Shown: positions 9,285 through 64,000 of the stretch, in pieces
Numbering within the stretch: position 1 is the stretch's first letter
How the letters are laid out: each line of letters starts with the position of its first letter
From: Nitrospira sp.
Lineage (GTDB): Bacteria > Nitrospirota > Nitrospiria > Nitrospirales > Nitrospiraceae
Length of the DNA stretch: 64,000 bases
Reading direction: 5' to 3'
Assembly (NCBI GenBank): GCA_022842445.1
Contig: JALHPO010000005.1
Span: forward strand, 214,908 to 278,907
Program-made: the position numbers and the translations under genes
The notes under the pieces: generated by a model
Databases searched by the model: none
The model's input: the letters and a program-made list of their open reading frames with translations, nothing else
Told to the model about the DNA's origin: nothing

Positions 9285-9644
9285 CTAGTGGGTCTCTCCC
9301 CGTACCCACTCAAGATATTGAGGAAGCCCGGCCATCACCGGTAGTGCAATAATCTCAGGAACTTTATACGAATGTATCTTTTTGATGGTTTCCTGCAGAG
9401 CTTGAAATTTCTCGACCGTAGTCTTGAGAAGAACCATGATTTCCTGCTCTTTCACTAACTTTCCTTCCCACCAGTAGGTTGAATGCACCAGAGGAATCGT
9501 TGTCGCACAAGCAGCCTGGTGAGTGCCTACCGTCTGATCCACAATTTTATCGGCTTCTTCTTGATTAGGCACCGTGACCATAACGACCCAAATATCCTGC
9601 GAGTTAGTTCCCATGATAGCGGGAAACGATACCTGAGATATCAC
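9285..9644 (-). CDS. cutA: divalent cation tolerance protein CutA
   Basis: VHSTYWWEGKLVKEQEIMVLLKT ... HSYKVPEIIALPV. Confidence 0.92.
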   Translation of the reverse strand: MISQVSFPAIMGTNSQDIWVVMVTVPNQEEADKIVDQTVGTHQAACATTIPLVHSTYWWEGKLVKEQEIMVLLKTTVEKFQALQETIKKIHSYKVPEIIALPVMAGLPQYLEWVRGETH

Positions 9645-9865
9645 CCAATAGACAACTCCGCAGTCACATGAATTTCGGCCTCACAAGGAGGAGCAGCAAC
9701 ATCTGTGCCCTATAGCGATCGCCAATAAATTGACAGTCCCATTGTTTTCAAATGGTTATGTGATCCTATTTCCTGCTCATTCGTGCATTACTCAAATTCT
9801 GTCGCCGAAAGACTACAGAGGCTGCTGTTTGTCACAAAAATGTGCAAAAATCGGCACTCCTGGCT

Positions 9866-11272
9866 CTAGATACGCTTCTTTTGCAACCTTACCCTGCTCA
9901 AGTCCCCGTGTTTCCCCATTTTTGCTAATTCTGAAAAATACCGGGCAAAGGCTGTCATACCCCCGGATGCCTGGCCCCAATCGAAATACTCATTCGGGGC
10001 ATGATAGCCGTGCTCCGGCAAACTCAGCCCCATGAAGAGAATCGGAACCTTCCAGGCCTTCTGCATCGTCACCACCGCCCCGATCGAACCACCTTCCCTG
10101 ACAAAAGCAGGCTCTTTGCCGAATCCTTCTTTCACCGCCCGCGACACTGCCTCCACATAAGGTCCATCGAACAACCCCCTGAACGGCTGCAGCATCCCTT
10201 CCCGCTCTACCTTTACCTTCGGGTTCACCTTGGCAATATACTTTTTGAGAAGGGCAAACACCCGTTCCGGCTTCTGGTTCGGCACCAGGCGCATGCTCAC
10301 TTTGAGCTCGCCCTTGCTTGGCACCACGGTCTTTACCCCAGGACCGTGATACCCGCCGGTAAGACCATGAATTTCAAAGGTCGGCGAAGCCCAGATACGC
10401 CGCATCACATCGGCAGGATCCTCAGTTCGAAGGGCCTGCAATCCGTAGGCGCTCTTAAATCGATTCACTTGGAAACCAGATTTGAGGAAACTCTTGATCT
10501 CCGCCTTGGTCGGCTCAATCACCTCGTCGTAAAACCCAGGAATCTTGACAGTGCCGGTCTTGGCATCGAGACAGGCATTTGCCACCTCCATCAGCTCTGC
10601 TAATGGATTACGGGCAGCTCCGCCGGTGAGCCCAGAATGGGCATCCTTAGCCCCTGTCTGTAATGTCAACCGCACACCCAGCAAGCCACGCAGACCGTAG
10701 GGCATTGCAGGACGCCCACTTGCAATCCAGATCGTATCCGACACGACGACGGAATCCGGTCGCGGAATCGCCGCACGGTTTGTGAGTCCAGCCTCAAAAT
10801 GCGGGCTTCCAATCTCCTCTTCCAATTCCCATAAAAATCGGATGTTGATTGGCACCCCCTGCTCAATCGCAAACCGGGCTCCGAACAAGGCCGCGAGCGC
10901 CGGCCCCTTGTCGTCAGTCGCTCCACGCCCACGATAGATCCCCCCCTCGTTCCGAAACACAAACGGGTCCTGTTTCCACTCCGGCTCTTGTGCCGGCTGC
11001 ACATCCATATGGTTATAGATCGTGACGGTTGGATGCTGGGCACCGGTTGTCCATCCCCCCGAGACGAGAGGGTACCCGCCGGTTTCCACAATCTGCGCAT
11101 CGGCTCCCATATCCGTCAGATATTGCGCGGCAAGAGCCGCCATGCGCCGCATATCACCGGCACGGGCAGGGTCCATGCTGATCGACGGCACTTGCACCAT
11201 CTGCCCCAATAGATCTTCAAACCGCAGCCGTGCCCCGTTGATAAACGTCTGAAGTTGCCGATTATTCGTCAT
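9866..11272 (-). CDS. M20 family dipeptidase
   Basis: YNHMDVQPAQEPEWKQDPFVF ... GRGATDDKGPALAAL; LWELEEEIGSPHFEAGL; start MTNNRQLQTF preferred. Confidence 0.9.
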   Translation of the reverse strand: MTNNRQLQTFINGARLRFEDLLGQMVQVPSISMDPARAGDMRRMAALAAQYLTDMGADAQIVETGGYPLVSGGWTTGAQHPTVTIYNHMDVQPAQEPEWKQDPFVFRNEGGIYRGRGATDDKGPALAALFGARFAIEQGVPINIRFLWELEEEIGSPHFEAGLTNRAAIPRPDSVVVSDTIWIASGRPAMPYGLRGLLGVRLTLQTGAKDAHSGLTGGAARNPLAELMEVANACLDAKTGTVKIPGFYDEVIEPTKAEIKSFLKSGFQVNRFKSAYGLQALRTEDPADVMRRIWASPTFEIHGLTGGYHGPGVKTVVPSKGELKVSMRLVPNQKPERVFALLKKYIAKVNPKVKVEREGMLQPFRGLFDGPYVEAVSRAVKEGFGKEPAFVREGGSIGAVVTMQKAWKVPILFMGLSLPEHGYHAPNEYFDWGQASGGMTAFARYFSELAKMGKHGDLSRVRLQKKRI

Positions 11273-58790: not shown

Positions 58791-60260
58791 ATGAGAGTCT
58801 TATCGTTCATTCTCGGCTGGCTACTCCTGCTACCGGCAGTCGGCTATTCAGGTCAGGTCGGAGAAGTACCGGCGGCCGAATCCCTCCCGCCCATTCCATT
58901 CAGTCTGGACGAACTTCATGCAAGGATCGATCGGACTCATCCGCTCCTCAAGGGAGCCGGAGCTGAAAAAACGATCGCCCGCGGCAAGATGCTGAAGGCT
59001 CTTGGCGCGTTCGAACCGACTCTCGTGAATGACACAGAGCTTGAACGTTTTATTTCAAGCACCGACCCCAGCAAGGGGACACAGACGGTGGGATATAACG
59101 ACACGCTGGTTGAAGCGCTGCATCCATCCGGATTTAAAGGCAGCGCCGGGTTCCGCCAAGCGATCGGCGATGCGAGAATTCCAGACCTGTCGTTCGGCAA
59201 CGGGAATCAACAAGTGATTCTGGGCGGGTACCTTCCTCTGCTACGGGGTCTGATGATCAACCCGGAACGTGCAGAACTCCAGCGATCAGAACTGGCCAAC
59301 CCCCTTGCAGACATCAAGATCGCTCAAACCAGGCAAGGTCTCTTCTTGGCAGCGGCCCATCAATTCTGGGAGTGGGTGTCAGCTGCCAAACTGTTCGACG
59401 TTCAGAAGCGAGCGGTCGCCGTGGCGGAAGCACGCTACAAGCAGGTGGAAGAGCGCGCCAAGGCTGGTGTGATCGCTCCAATCGACGTGACGGAAGCCGG
59501 CCAGGAGGTGCATCGCCGGCGGGAAGTTGCCATCGCTGCCCGGCGACTGCTCGAGCAGGAGCAGTTCAAGCTGTCCATGTTTCTGTGGGACAATGGCTCT
59601 CCGACGATCCCGCCAATCGATCGCGTTCCGGAATTTCCGCCGGCGGGACGGCTGCCGACTCCGGAAGACATCATGGCGCATAAGCTGGCCGCGATGGAAG
59701 AACGGCCTGAGGTCAAGGAACTGGACGTGGAGGCAAAAATCAACAACATCGATCTCGCGTTGGCGAAAAATAACCTGCTCCCAAGCCTTGACCTCGAGGC
59801 AGCGCCGGCCCGTTCTCCTGAAAAATTCGTTCTGGGGTTGGGATACCGATTCGGCGTGGAGCTGAGGATTCCTCTGATGCAACGCCGCGGCCGAGGCGAA
59901 GTGCTGCAGGCCCAAGGCCAGGCCGAGCGGCTCGTGATGGCGCAGCAGTATCGGGAAAACCAAGTCCTGGTCGATGTCGATAATGCCTTCTCCGCGATCG
60001 AGCGAGCGAGGGAACGAATAGAGGAGGCGGTACAGGCGCTCCGCCTGGTTGAAATCGTTGAAGAGGGCGAGCGGTACCGCTTCAGCGTCGGGGCAAGCAG
60101 CGTGTTGTTCGTCAATATGCGAGAGCGCAACACTATCGATTCGGAAAATCAGGTCATCCGAGCGAAGGCCGAGTACTACAAGGCCCTGGCGCAATATCAA
60201 TGGGCCATCGGAGCTTGGGCCAAGGGCCCGAATGAAATCATGCGGGCGAGTTATCGTTGA
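58791..60260 (+). CDS. TolC family outer membrane efflux protein
   Basis: Signal peptide; coiled-coil duplicated OEP pattern; RAELQRSELANPLADIKIAQTRQGLFLAAAHQFWEW. Confidence 0.88.
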   Translation: MRVLSFILGWLLLLPAVGYSGQVGEVPAAESLPPIPFSLDELHARIDRTHPLLKGAGAEKTIARGKMLKALGAFEPTLVNDTELERFISSTDPSKGTQTVGYNDTLVEALHPSGFKGSAGFRQAIGDARIPDLSFGNGNQQVILGGYLPLLRGLMINPERAELQRSELANPLADIKIAQTRQGLFLAAAHQFWEWVSAAKLFDVQKRAVAVAEARYKQVEERAKAGVIAPIDVTEAGQEVHRRREVAIAARRLLEQEQFKLSMFLWDNGSPTIPPIDRVPEFPPAGRLPTPEDIMAHKLAAMEERPEVKELDVEAKINNIDLALAKNNLLPSLDLEAAPARSPEKFVLGLGYRFGVELRIPLMQRRGRGEVLQAQGQAERLVMAQQYRENQVLVDVDNAFSAIERARERIEEAVQALRLVEIVEEGERYRFSVGASSVLFVNMRERNTIDSENQVIRAKAEYYKALAQYQWAIGAWAKGPNEIMRASYR

Positions 60261-60391: not shown

Positions 60392-62092
60392 ATGGAGCCA
60401 TCACTCGGCACCCATCAGCCTCCCCTGTTTCACGTGCTGAGGCTTTTGGGGCGTTTCTTCCAGCTTGAGCGTAGGGTCTTGGCTCTCGTGGTTTCCTATG
60501 CCCTGGTGATCGGACTCTTCTCCCTCATCGTCCCCTTGACTGTTCAAGAATTGGTCAACACGTTCTCCCTTGCCATCCAACCAGTCATGATCGCCACGCT
60601 GGCCATTATCATGGTCGTGGTGCTGACGGTCGTCGGCGTATTTAAAGCGTTGCAATACTACGCGGTCGAGGTGCTCCAGCGACGGCTCTTTGTCAGGACT
60701 GCTTTCGCGATGGCCCAGAAGCTTCCCCTTATTCGATTTCAAGGATTCAAACCGAGAGTCTCAAATTGCTTCATGGAAACAGCGTTCATGCAGCGCGCGC
60801 TGGCGGTCTTACTTGTGGATCTGATCCATGTGGTCGTCGGCGGCGTCATCGGGATGCTGATCTTGGTGTTCTACCATCCCTACTTTATTCTCTTTAACCT
60901 CGTCCTGCTCATCGGATCAGCCTTCATTTTCTTTGTCCTGTCTCGTGGAGGACTGCGGACCACCGTCGACATGTCTCATGCCAAGTATGACGTGCTGCAC
61001 TGGATCCAGGAAATCTCCCAGAACTTGCTGCACATCAAGGCAACCGACAGCCGCTCGTTGCTCATGGAGAAAACCGATCAACTCGCGAAGAAGTATATCG
61101 AGTGTCGACGAGCGCGGTTCGCCGTTTTGCTGCGCCAATTTATCGCCTCGGTTGGAGGGCAAGCCCTTGCGCACAGCGGTACCCTGGCTCTAGCCGGCTG
61201 GCTCTTGTCGATCGGGCAATTGACCCTCGGCCAACTCGTCGCCGTTGAGGTGGTTGTCGGCAGCCTTCTGATCAACTTTGATGCGGTGGTCAAGAGTATG
61301 GGGCAGGTGTTTTTCTTCTTCACTGCCCTAGTGGAGCTAGATGCCTTCTTCTCACTGCCGAAAGACCAGCTCCACCCTCCTCCGACGTCATCGGTGATCC
61401 TCCCTGACCCGAAGATTCATGGCATCCGCGTGACGTGTAAAGGACTCAGTCTGATTCACAACGGTGCGTCTGCGTTCGACCATCTCGATTTGGACGTTGC
61501 CTCCGGCGAGAAAGTCGCGATCTACGCCAAGACAACGACGGCGAGAATAGCATTGGCAAAAGTGCTGGCCGGACTTCAAGCGCCGACCAGCGGTGTCATT
61601 TCCTATAACGATATTGAACTTCGGCATCTCGATCTGAGCGTCGTCAATCAATGTCGTGGCTTCATGATCGATTCGCAGCTGTCCCTGATAGACGGAACGA
61701 TCGCGGACAATATCGTGTGGCGCCGCTCCTACATCTCTTACGAGGATGTCCGTTGGGCCCTCTGGTTGACTCAGCTGCAGGAAGAAGTGGCCGCCCTCCC
61801 GCTCGGTCTCAACTCCGACATCAGCGCGCTTGGAGAGATTCCCGCCCCGACACATATATTGCGCATCTTGCTGGCGCGGGCCATCATCGGACGGCCGAAA
61901 CTTCTAATCTTCGACGGCATGATCCATGACATGCAGCCGGCTATCCGCGATGCCATCCTGCGGCGAATCTGCTCGAAAGAGGAGTCCTGGACCGTCATCT
62001 TCGTCTCGAACGATCCTGACCTCACCCCCCACGTTGATCGCCGCATCACTCTGGGTGATGCGGGCGCCACGATGCCGCTATTACCTGCTTGA
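60392..62092 (+). CDS. ABC transporter-like protein (TM + degenerate NBD)
   Basis: Six-TM exporter-like N-term; NBD aligned as EKVAIYAKTTTARIALAKVLAGLQ ... RPKLLIFDGMIHDM with loss of catalytic motifs. Confidence 0.85.
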   Translation: MEPSLGTHQPPLFHVLRLLGRFFQLERRVLALVVSYALVIGLFSLIVPLTVQELVNTFSLAIQPVMIATLAIIMVVVLTVVGVFKALQYYAVEVLQRRLFVRTAFAMAQKLPLIRFQGFKPRVSNCFMETAFMQRALAVLLVDLIHVVVGGVIGMLILVFYHPYFILFNLVLLIGSAFIFFVLSRGGLRTTVDMSHAKYDVLHWIQEISQNLLHIKATDSRSLLMEKTDQLAKKYIECRRARFAVLLRQFIASVGGQALAHSGTLALAGWLLSIGQLTLGQLVAVEVVVGSLLINFDAVVKSMGQVFFFFTALVELDAFFSLPKDQLHPPPTSSVILPDPKIHGIRVTCKGLSLIHNGASAFDHLDLDVASGEKVAIYAKTTTARIALAKVLAGLQAPTSGVISYNDIELRHLDLSVVNQCRGFMIDSQLSLIDGTIADNIVWRRSYISYEDVRWALWLTQLQEEVAALPLGLNSDISALGEIPAPTHILRILLARAIIGRPKLLIFDGMIHDMQPAIRDAILRRICSKEESWTVIFVSNDPDLTPHVDRRITLGDAGATMPLLPA

Positions 62093-62134: not shown

Positions 62135-63745
62135 TTACTTTGAGCCTCGTCCTGCCTTGGGGAGAAGGGTGTCCATCACCGTGTGCGAGCGTTCCTCATA
62201 ATCCGGCGGGAACAGGTTGAAGCGACGCCACAGCTCATACCAGAGGGGCACACGGTTCAAGATGACCCACCCCATCGTCTTCGTCCCCTGCCGCACGTGA
62301 GACTGTTCCGGCCAGACGCGATCGTCCGGGTCAGGAACAACCCAAAACCGGTAGTTCCCTTTTCCGTCGTCGACTTGATCGATGACCTTAATCACGCCGG
62401 AATAGGTACCGGCCATCAATTCAGGCCATGCCGGCAGAGGGATAGCGGGGATGCCGTAGAAGAGGATTTTAACCTTTCGACCCACATTCAACAGCGGGGC
62501 GTCCAGCCCGTCCGCTATCATCTCAATCGCCTTGTCCGTACTGGTAGGAGACAGTCGGACCAACGTATCACCTGGGCGCACGGTCTCACCAGCACCAGCT
62601 TTGGCCATCTTGACAACGGTGCCGTCGATTGGAGCTAAGATCTTACCGGCCAGACGTCGTTGCTCGGCATTTGACAGTCGGAGTGACACATCGGCCAGCT
62701 GCTCGCCGACTCTGGCTGCTTCGGCCACGGACGAATCCCGGCCAGCCTCCGCATCGAGCAGCCGCTGCAACATCTCCGCGCTGACTTGATCTCGTCCGAA
62801 GCCGAGTGATTTCATGGCCTGCTCGGCTGCTTGCAGATTCGCCCGGGCTCCCTCAAGATCGGCTTGACCGGCGGTATCTGTTTGGATCGCCAATTCCAGT
62901 TCTCGCTGAGAAGCCAACCCCCTCTTAGCCAGTTGTTTGTGCCGCTCTACGTTAAGGGCTGCAGTAATCGCGGCGATTTTGGCGGCTTCTACCTTCTGAT
63001 GCGCTTCGCGCACCTTATTTCCGGCTTCGACCACACGGGCCTCAGCCGACGGCACGGCGGTTTTCACTAGATTCCGCATCTCAATGATGCGCTTGTCCAG
63101 CTGCTCGACTCTGGCCAATGCCGCATGTTGGGTCTTCTCCATCGCTTTTTTTCGTTGATCCAGAAAGGCCAGCAGGTCTGGTGACATGAAATTGGGATCA
63201 TTATCCTCCAGTTCAAGAATGAGGTCTCCCTCCTTAACCTGGTCACCTTCGAATACGTGCCATTTCTTGATACGGCCGGCAATTTGGGCCTCAATGTCTT
63301 GAGGTCGTTCGAATGGAGTATAGGCCGACATCTGGCCGGTCACGGTCACTGTCTGAGTCCAAGGGACGAAGAAGATGAATAGAAAGAAGAGCAGGAACAG
63401 GGCAATCGGCAGACGCGAGGAAAACCTCCATCCCTTCGGAAGCTGAGCTTCTTCCCAGGATTGAAGCTTGGTGGAAGCGGCCAGCTCGTCGACGGAGATT
63501 TCTTCCGAACCTGATTCACCGTGAACAAGGGACCGGACCGTCTTCCCAAGATCGAGAGCGCGACTTCCCACGGAACCGTTTTTGTTGCGCATACTAGTCC
63601 AATCAACGACCAGGAACCATTGAAAGTCTGAAAGACCTCGTGCCGGCATCATAAGAAGAACCTGCGGTTGAGTCAATTCAGTCCGCTCATCACGCTGCCT
63701 CAACGGATTGTTCCTGGCCCGATCACAGTTGCGACAGCGAATCAT
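62135..63745 (-). CDS. HlyD-family membrane fusion protein
   Basis: AQIAGRIKKWHVFEGDQVKEGDLILELEDNDPNF; LAGKILAPIDGTVVKMAKAGAGETVRPGDTLVRLSP. Confidence 0.9.
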   Translation of the reverse strand: MIRCRNCDRARNNPLRQRDERTELTQPQVLLMMPARGLSDFQWFLVVDWTSMRNKNGSVGSRALDLGKTVRSLVHGESGSEEISVDELAASTKLQSWEEAQLPKGWRFSSRLPIALFLLFFLFIFFVPWTQTVTVTGQMSAYTPFERPQDIEAQIAGRIKKWHVFEGDQVKEGDLILELEDNDPNFMSPDLLAFLDQRKKAMEKTQHAALARVEQLDKRIIEMRNLVKTAVPSAEARVVEAGNKVREAHQKVEAAKIAAITAALNVERHKQLAKRGLASQRELELAIQTDTAGQADLEGARANLQAAEQAMKSLGFGRDQVSAEMLQRLLDAEAGRDSSVAEAARVGEQLADVSLRLSNAEQRRLAGKILAPIDGTVVKMAKAGAGETVRPGDTLVRLSPTSTDKAIEMIADGLDAPLLNVGRKVKILFYGIPAIPLPAWPELMAGTYSGVIKVIDQVDDGKGNYRFWVVPDPDDRVWPEQSHVRQGTKTMGWVILNRVPLWYELWRRFNLFPPDYEERSHTVMDTLLPKAGRGSK

Positions 63746-63924: not shown

Positions 63925-64000
63925 ATGAAAGCACGAACCATAACCAAAGCGGCCGGCCGAGGAACGACAGAAGTTGCGCTGAGCGTCGGGATAGCCATGT
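63925..64000 (+). CDS. 5' end of a small protein gene, truncated by window edge
   Basis: RBS GGAGGGCGTCATGAA identical to that of 56256; MKARTITKAAGRGTTEVALSVGIAM... Confidence 0.5.
   Translation, partial: MKARTITKAAGRGTTEVALSVGIAM

Follow-up and report, generated by a model that had tools for sequence, protein, structure and literature searches.

ATP hydrolysis is the defining feature of ABC exporters, and in the NHLM bacteriocin exporter family the ATPase motifs are intact. In the HlyB-HlyD-TolC type I secretion system, an exporter built in the order transmembrane domain (TMD)-nucleotide-binding domain (NBD) is encoded next to HlyD and TolC. Each ATP site of an ABC dimer is formed by the Walker A and B motifs and the Q- and H-loops of one NBD together with the signature of the other (PMC7756269). 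TmrAB, TAP and TM287/288 have one half with non-consensus motifs and keep one complete site. Transport without an NBD has precedents: MsbA deprived of its NBD transports by using the proton gradient (PMC4979069), and SbmA, an ABC-type TMD from which both NBD and coupling helices have been lost, is driven by protons (PMC13316013).

The window analysed here is the whole stretch of 64,000 nucleotides, and base 64000 is also the end of the contig. It carries a gene for an exporter-like ABC protein with a degenerate NBD (pseudo-ABC), flanked by TolC- and HlyD-family genes. The features are as follows:

58791..60260, + strand: gene for a TolC-family outer-membrane factor, 489 aa (Pfam OEP, E 4e-33; TIGR01844, E 2e-13)
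60392..62092, + strand: pseudo-ABC exporter gene, judged catalytically degenerate, 566 aa (translation, relatives, structure model and PDB fold matches)
60425..61351, + strand: TMD, residues 12-320 (helix boundaries of the model), which holds most of the family-wide conserved columns
61025..61045, + strand: coupling helix 2, residues 212-218, where an NBD is predicted to dock (a short helix of the model, conserved if the NBD is present and decayed in members that lack it)
61247..61249, + strand: Glu286 in TM6, never Glu in the canonical outgroup (column table)
61514..61555, + strand: degenerate Walker A, VAIYAKTTTARIAL, residues 375-388 (alignment with canonical exporters)
61841..61855, + strand: PAPTH in place of the LSGGQ signature, residues 484-488 (same alignment)
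61901..61918, + strand: Walker B, LLIFDG, residues 504-509, with Gly in place of the catalytic Glu (same alignment)
61994..62017, + strand: H-loop region, VIFVSNDP, residues 535-542, with Asn540 in place of His (same alignment)
62135..63745, - strand: gene for an HlyD-family membrane fusion protein, 536 aa as called (Pfam HlyD_3 and Biotin_lipoyl_2)

The HlyD gene is convergent with the pseudo-ABC gene, and the TolC gene lies on the other side of the latter. Orthologs of the HlyD protein have about 475 aa as against the 536 aa called, so its true start is probably internal.

Eight intact ABC exporters, four encoded in the same genome and four on plasmids, served as the reference in an alignment of the window protein. 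In Walker A, G379, G382, G384, K385 and [ST]386 are replaced by A, T, A, R and I; the signature (484-488) is changed from LSGGQ to PAPTH; Walker B retains D508 and has G for E509; H540 of the H-loop is N; and the Q-loop Q of the canonical rows is S. All eight canonical exporters have the three glycines, K, D, E, H and the Q-loop Q, and seven of them have SGG. The loss of Walker A, LSGGQ, the Walker B Glu and the H-loop His, which had been proposed in the initial annotation from the window alone, was thereby confirmed, and a location of the motifs elsewhere in the protein was ruled out by the same alignment. Its statement on Walker A stands in full for the glycines, since intact P-loop glycines were found in none of the 37 sequences from the taxonomic family of the window (f1); the loss of Lys holds for the subclade of the window protein, to which the exchange for Arg is restricted, but not for 33 of the 37 f1 sequences, in which Lys is retained. 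Lys or Arg is thus present at this position in 37/37, the Q-loop Gln is Ser in 37/37 as well, and the Walker B Glu is Gly in all 43 sequences from the order. Judged by sequence, all four elements of a functional type I ABC exporter (Walker A, signature, Walker B Glu and H-loop His) appear lost from the window protein, and the NBD of its family would no longer be able to hydrolyse ATP. Databases call these proteins 'ABC transporter ATP-binding protein', and Pfam ABC_tran scores 19.1 bits on the window protein, under the 25-bit cut-off. Among NCBIfam models, those for peptide and type I secretion exporters match best, and none comes near its cut-off. Of these, the NHLM bacteriocin exporters (TIGR03796/TIGR03797, E 9e-32) give the best match to the whole protein, and TIGR03796 gives 110 bits against a curated cut-off of 853.

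The initial annotation had also described the NBD fold and the TM domain as well preserved, and structure prediction agreed with it. An AlphaFold2 model (pLDDT 89, pTM 0.82), computed from an alignment of the window protein and 77 relatives from Bacteroidota and Gemmatimonadota, comprises a helical TMD and a complete NBD. A Foldseek search of the PDB was led by TmrAB, HlyB, MsbA and PCAT1, with best TM-scores of 0.84-0.87. In the model a six-helix TMD is fused to an ABC-fold NBD, which is the architecture of a type I (type IV fold) ABC exporter. The prediction is thus of an NBD that folds but has no catalytic site.

With HlyB the window protein shares the fold (TM-score 0.85), the TMD-NBD order and the adjacent HlyD and TolC genes. 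It differs from HlyB in having neither the catalytic ATP-site motifs, so that a functional ATPase is not expected from its sequence, nor the N-terminal C39-like domain; in most of the pseudo-ABC family, moreover, the conserved half is the TMD and not, as in HlyB-type exporters, the NBD. The fold is likewise that of TmrAB (TM-score 0.84), TAP and TM287/288. Whereas one site is complete in those exporters, both half-sites are lost from the window protein, no intact partner half-transporter that could complete a consensus site is encoded alongside, and tandem copies found elsewhere in the family are also degenerate. SbmA/BacA (SLiPT), a group of secondary peptide transporters, resembles the pseudo-ABC family in having an ABC exporter-like TMD that works, or is proposed to work, without hydrolysis (PMC13316013), and loss of the NBD with decay of the coupling helix recurs in the extreme members of the family. 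In contrast to SbmA/BacA, the window protein retains coupling helices and, in the model, a folded pseudo-NBD; the absence of an NBD that characterises SLiPT was found only in three relatives, and SbmA/BacA Pfam models gave no match to the window protein at E 0.1. SbmA is furthermore an importer with an additional TM0 domain, whereas the window protein is found with HlyD and TolC, which suggests export. Type-I-secretion-like loci associated with SecA_DEAD also combine HlyD and OEP genes with the lack of an ordinary ABC ATPase; they contain no ABC homolog and encode a SecA_DEAD protein and M50-like proteins (PMC4452313). Neither of these proteins was seen among the scanned neighbours of pseudo-ABC genes, and this identity was rejected as a different system.

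Relatives of the window protein were detected at E <= 1e-40 in 149 of the 176 f1 genomes. The closest orthologs (73-90 % identity) have the same motif losses, and a paralog on another contig of the same genome, 60 % identical, has losses of the same kind. When the whole phylum was searched, the family was confined to f1 and one further family (f2) of the same order (77/296 genomes); plasmid records added relatives from Persicobacteraceae and sphingomonads. A wider scan covered 85,462 species with one genome each; it was keyed on a TM6 peptide pattern and hence did not select on the state of the NBD. It yielded at least 594 confirmed relatives, the best 80 of which are mostly from Bacteroidota with some from Gemmatimonadota. 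The motifs were read one by one in 128 aligned relatives from f1, f2, Bacteroidota, Gemmatimonadota and sphingomonads. The full set of Walker Lys, SGG, Walker B Glu and His was found in none of the 128, each of which lacks at least two of the four; seven of eight canonical outgroup sequences have all four elements, and none of the eight lacks two or more. A close relative with intact motifs was sought among the 128 and was not encountered. The family is large, conserved and cross-phylum, and apparently undescribed, no account of it having been found in the open-licence literature.

The losses differ between lineages. Nearly all motifs are lost in the order of the window and in sphingomonads, the latter with Glu at the position of the Walker A Lys. 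Bacteroidota members mostly retain Walker A (near-complete in 59 of 80 sequences), have LPRS-like signatures and lack the H-loop His. Members from Gemmatimonadota retain the His and have Glu or Ala for the Walker Lys; in L160, L161 and L162, where this combination was read, one sequence also has DE in Walker B. An early shared loss of the signature, followed by independent drift elsewhere, would account for these differences. In a tree built from the TMD only, the family falls on one side of the canonical-exporter branch with an SH-aLRT of 88, the outgroup branches being long and the branch not firmly settled.

In most of the family the conservation pattern is inverted: the membrane domain is constrained, as against the NBD in canonical exporters. 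Mean identities are 20 % (TMD) and 42 % (NBD) among canonical exporters, 54 and 34.5 % among Bacteroidota members, 47.5 and 38 % between f1 and f2, and 48 and 32 % between Bacteroidota and Gemmatimonadota; the two domains are about equal within f1 (55.5/58 %) and between f1 and Bacteroidota (27/28 %). Columns conserved to at least 90 % across the 128 members lie mostly in the TMD, and none is a catalytic position of the NBD. They include Arg239 and Glu286, residues absent from the outgroup at those positions; acidic TMD residues conserved in the family are Glu93 (91 %) and Glu286 (97 %).

Selection on the pseudo-ABC genes of the window's clade is purifying; omega lies between 0.06 and 0.12 for the TMD and between 0.08 and 0.21 for the NBD. 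Pairs with L013 were left out because their value of about 1 was apparently a coordinate artefact (the L013 gene is an intact frame of 567 residues). Some formerly catalytic positions are fixed at new residues (Gly, Ser), which indicates that the protein is maintained and is not eroding. Ortholog conservation, omega well below 1, the intact predicted fold and conserved synteny together bear out the earlier view of a maintained gene as opposed to random decay.

HlyD and TolC homologs lie within 4 kb of the pseudo-ABC gene in 32 of 42 neighbourhoods from the order of the window, and in 71 of 80 Bacteroidota and Gemmatimonadota loci (the best 80 of at least 594), several of the exceptions being on short contigs. 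Plasmid annotations place the two genes next to it in Fulvitalea, Aureibacter, Riemerella, Novosphingobium, Croceicoccus and Sphingobium as well. With an HlyD query, the genome of the window gave only two places, one adjoining each pseudo-ABC copy. The initial annotation had asked whether orthologs share the motif losses and the HlyD/TolC neighbours; both were found, and its reading as an HlyD/TolC-associated ABC pseudo-ATPase is upheld by conserved synteny and ortholog conservation. It had also proposed to look for a second ABC ATPase beyond base 64000; the contig stops there, and the orthologous loci have none. Of the 42 neighbourhoods of the order, 41 lack any ABC protein in which Walker A and LSGG are both present, and an intact ABC protein of exporter size occurs in only 3 of the 80 other loci (again the best 80 of at least 594). 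In sum, the maintained pseudo-ATPase with HlyD and TolC was supported and the partner in trans was made unlikely; the cross-phylum reach and the loss of entire NBDs had been understated.

This natural loss of the NBD was found in three genomes of one f2 genus (G327, G396 and G319), which encode TMD-only versions of 337-346 aa; the proteins of G396 and G319 are 92 and 80 % identical to that of G327. Their genes are placed as follows:

L098 4444-5457; L227 about 9340-10360; L099 9703-10743: NBD-less members in HlyD-TolC clusters, with decayed coupling helix 2

The order HlyD-TolC-pseudo-ABC is kept in these clusters. Searches with NBD queries found no remnant of the domain downstream, and in G327 the next ORF begins about 50 bases past the TMD-only stop. 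Omega values of 0.23-0.29 indicate purifying selection, at a level above that of full-length relatives; the L212/L213 pair, with very few changes, was left out of these values. Identity in coupling helix 2 is 62 % among full-length relatives and 26 % between full-length and NBD-less proteins; the corresponding values for TM6 are 74 and 77 %. Since the NBD-less genes are kept under purifying selection with helix 2 decayed and TM6 not, we infer that the TMD is useful without an NBD. Since helix 2 is decayed only where the NBD is missing, the pseudo-NBD of full-length members, that of the window included, would still engage the TMD.

We propose, with a probability of about 50 %, that the window protein is a former ABC exporter with a dead ATPase, which forms the inner-membrane part of an HlyD-TolC conduit and whose TMD works without ATP hydrolysis of its own. 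Its family would be an old one, spread across phyla and made up of type-I-secretion-like ABC exporters whose NBD, judged by its motifs, has lost hydrolysis. The conserved gene neighbourhood points to a dedicated conduit, and the association with HlyD and TolC suggests export across both membranes. Such exporters probably draw their energy from a source different from ATP hydrolysis of their own; the TMD would most likely act as a secondary transporter on a proton or substrate gradient, perhaps with proton coupling by analogy with SbmA. In full-length members the pseudo-NBD would still dock on the coupling helices and have a structural or regulatory role, as the NBD-less relatives suggest. Three findings count against this proposal: the Walker A Lys in most f1 members and the near-complete Walker A in most Bacteroidota members, which by sequence may mean that ATP binding persists in part of the family; ten orphan paralogs without close HlyD/TolC neighbours, some of them just upstream of a histidine kinase gene, which would suit a sensory role; and the raised omega of the TMD-only members relative to full-length relatives. 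More tentatively, HlyD-TolC exporters of ABC descent may have turned into secondary transporters on a path separate from that of SbmA/BacA, and every stage of loss would still be visible, from the signature with Walker A kept (Bacteroidota) through the P-loop (order of the window) to the entire NBD (one genus). A family of this kind next to HlyD and TolC would mean that a type-I-like secretion conduit can do without an ABC ATPase; it would also provide a second natural route besides SbmA from primary to secondary transport, with directly testable intermediates, and annotation pipelines as well as counts of type I secretion systems would need correction.

The main rival, to which we give a clearly smaller share, is a non-transporting scaffold or sensor, in which a dimer of the pseudo-ABC would hold the HlyD-TolC channel in place or gate it, or would pass on ligand binding to signalling partners, without moving substrate itself. 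An NBD that appears catalytically dead would suit such a role, as would the orphan paralogs directly upstream of PAS histidine kinases (three by Pfam; a sigma-54 response regulator follows in at least two) and a 4HB_MCP protein gene after the pseudo-ABC in two scanned loci, with ORFs of the same size in many others. The window copy and most relatives, however, adjoin HlyD and TolC and not signalling genes, and the strong conservation of the TM helices suggests a function beyond anchoring.

An ATPase acting in trans, either an intact ABC half-transporter in a heterodimer or an unrelated ATPase encoded elsewhere, is improbable. Among heterodimeric exporters a degenerate half is a common feature (PMC7756269), and intact ABC exporters are encoded elsewhere in the window genome. 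In the window protein, however, the signature and Walker B/H-loop are both gone, so that both composite sites would stay incomplete even with a perfect ABC partner, and this counts against rescue by an ABC ATPase. The scarcity of intact ABC genes in the neighbourhoods and the persistence of NBD-less relatives point the same way, and the pairing in trans considered by the initial annotation is therefore opposed. Similarly doubtful is ATP that is bound without being hydrolysed, as a structural or regulatory ligand of a pseudo-NBD dimer: the basic residue at the Walker A position throughout f1 and the near-intact Walker A in 59 of 80 Bacteroidota sequences would allow it, but the P-loop glycines are largely gone in the order of the window, the Walker Lys is Glu or Ala in Gemmatimonadota and Glu in sphingomonad sequences, and one genus dispenses with the NBD. 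Ordinary gene decay or an assembly error in the window genome can be dismissed almost entirely, because the 73-90 % orthologs and the 60 % paralog share the losses and omega is far under 1.

Several further arrangements were observed. Orphan pseudo-ABC paralogs are followed by a histidine kinase gene in L102 (9177-13706), L103 (5972-10512), L106 (9579-12786) and L110 (4744-7920). The kinase is PAS-HisKA-HATPase by Pfam in L102, L103 and L106, an ORF of the same size takes its place in L110, and the sigma-54 response regulator comes next in L102 and L103; this order suggests a sensory version of the protein. In L046 (11239-12027) and L059 (8810-9601) the pseudo-ABC gene is followed by one for a protein of about 262 aa, which has a 4HB_MCP four-helix-bundle sensory domain and no signalling output domain, and ORFs matching it in size occupy the same place in many other loci. 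L112, L116 and other Bacteroidota members of about 724 aa have about 150 additional N-terminal residues, perhaps a degenerate C39-like domain, for which Pfam gave no match at E 0.01. Tandem pseudo-ABC genes, both degenerate, lie side by side in L052, L053, L058 and L059, where heterodimers of two pseudo-ABCs are possible. In the window's subclade (62135-63745; L042, L043 and L045) the HlyD gene is inverted and convergent with the TolC-pseudo-ABC pair; in other lineages the three genes are co-directional. A paralogous cluster (G000, contig C15; L011, 45-6606) consists of two or three tandem TolC genes followed by pseudo-ABC and HlyD genes, and was also seen in L048, L049, L050 and L051.
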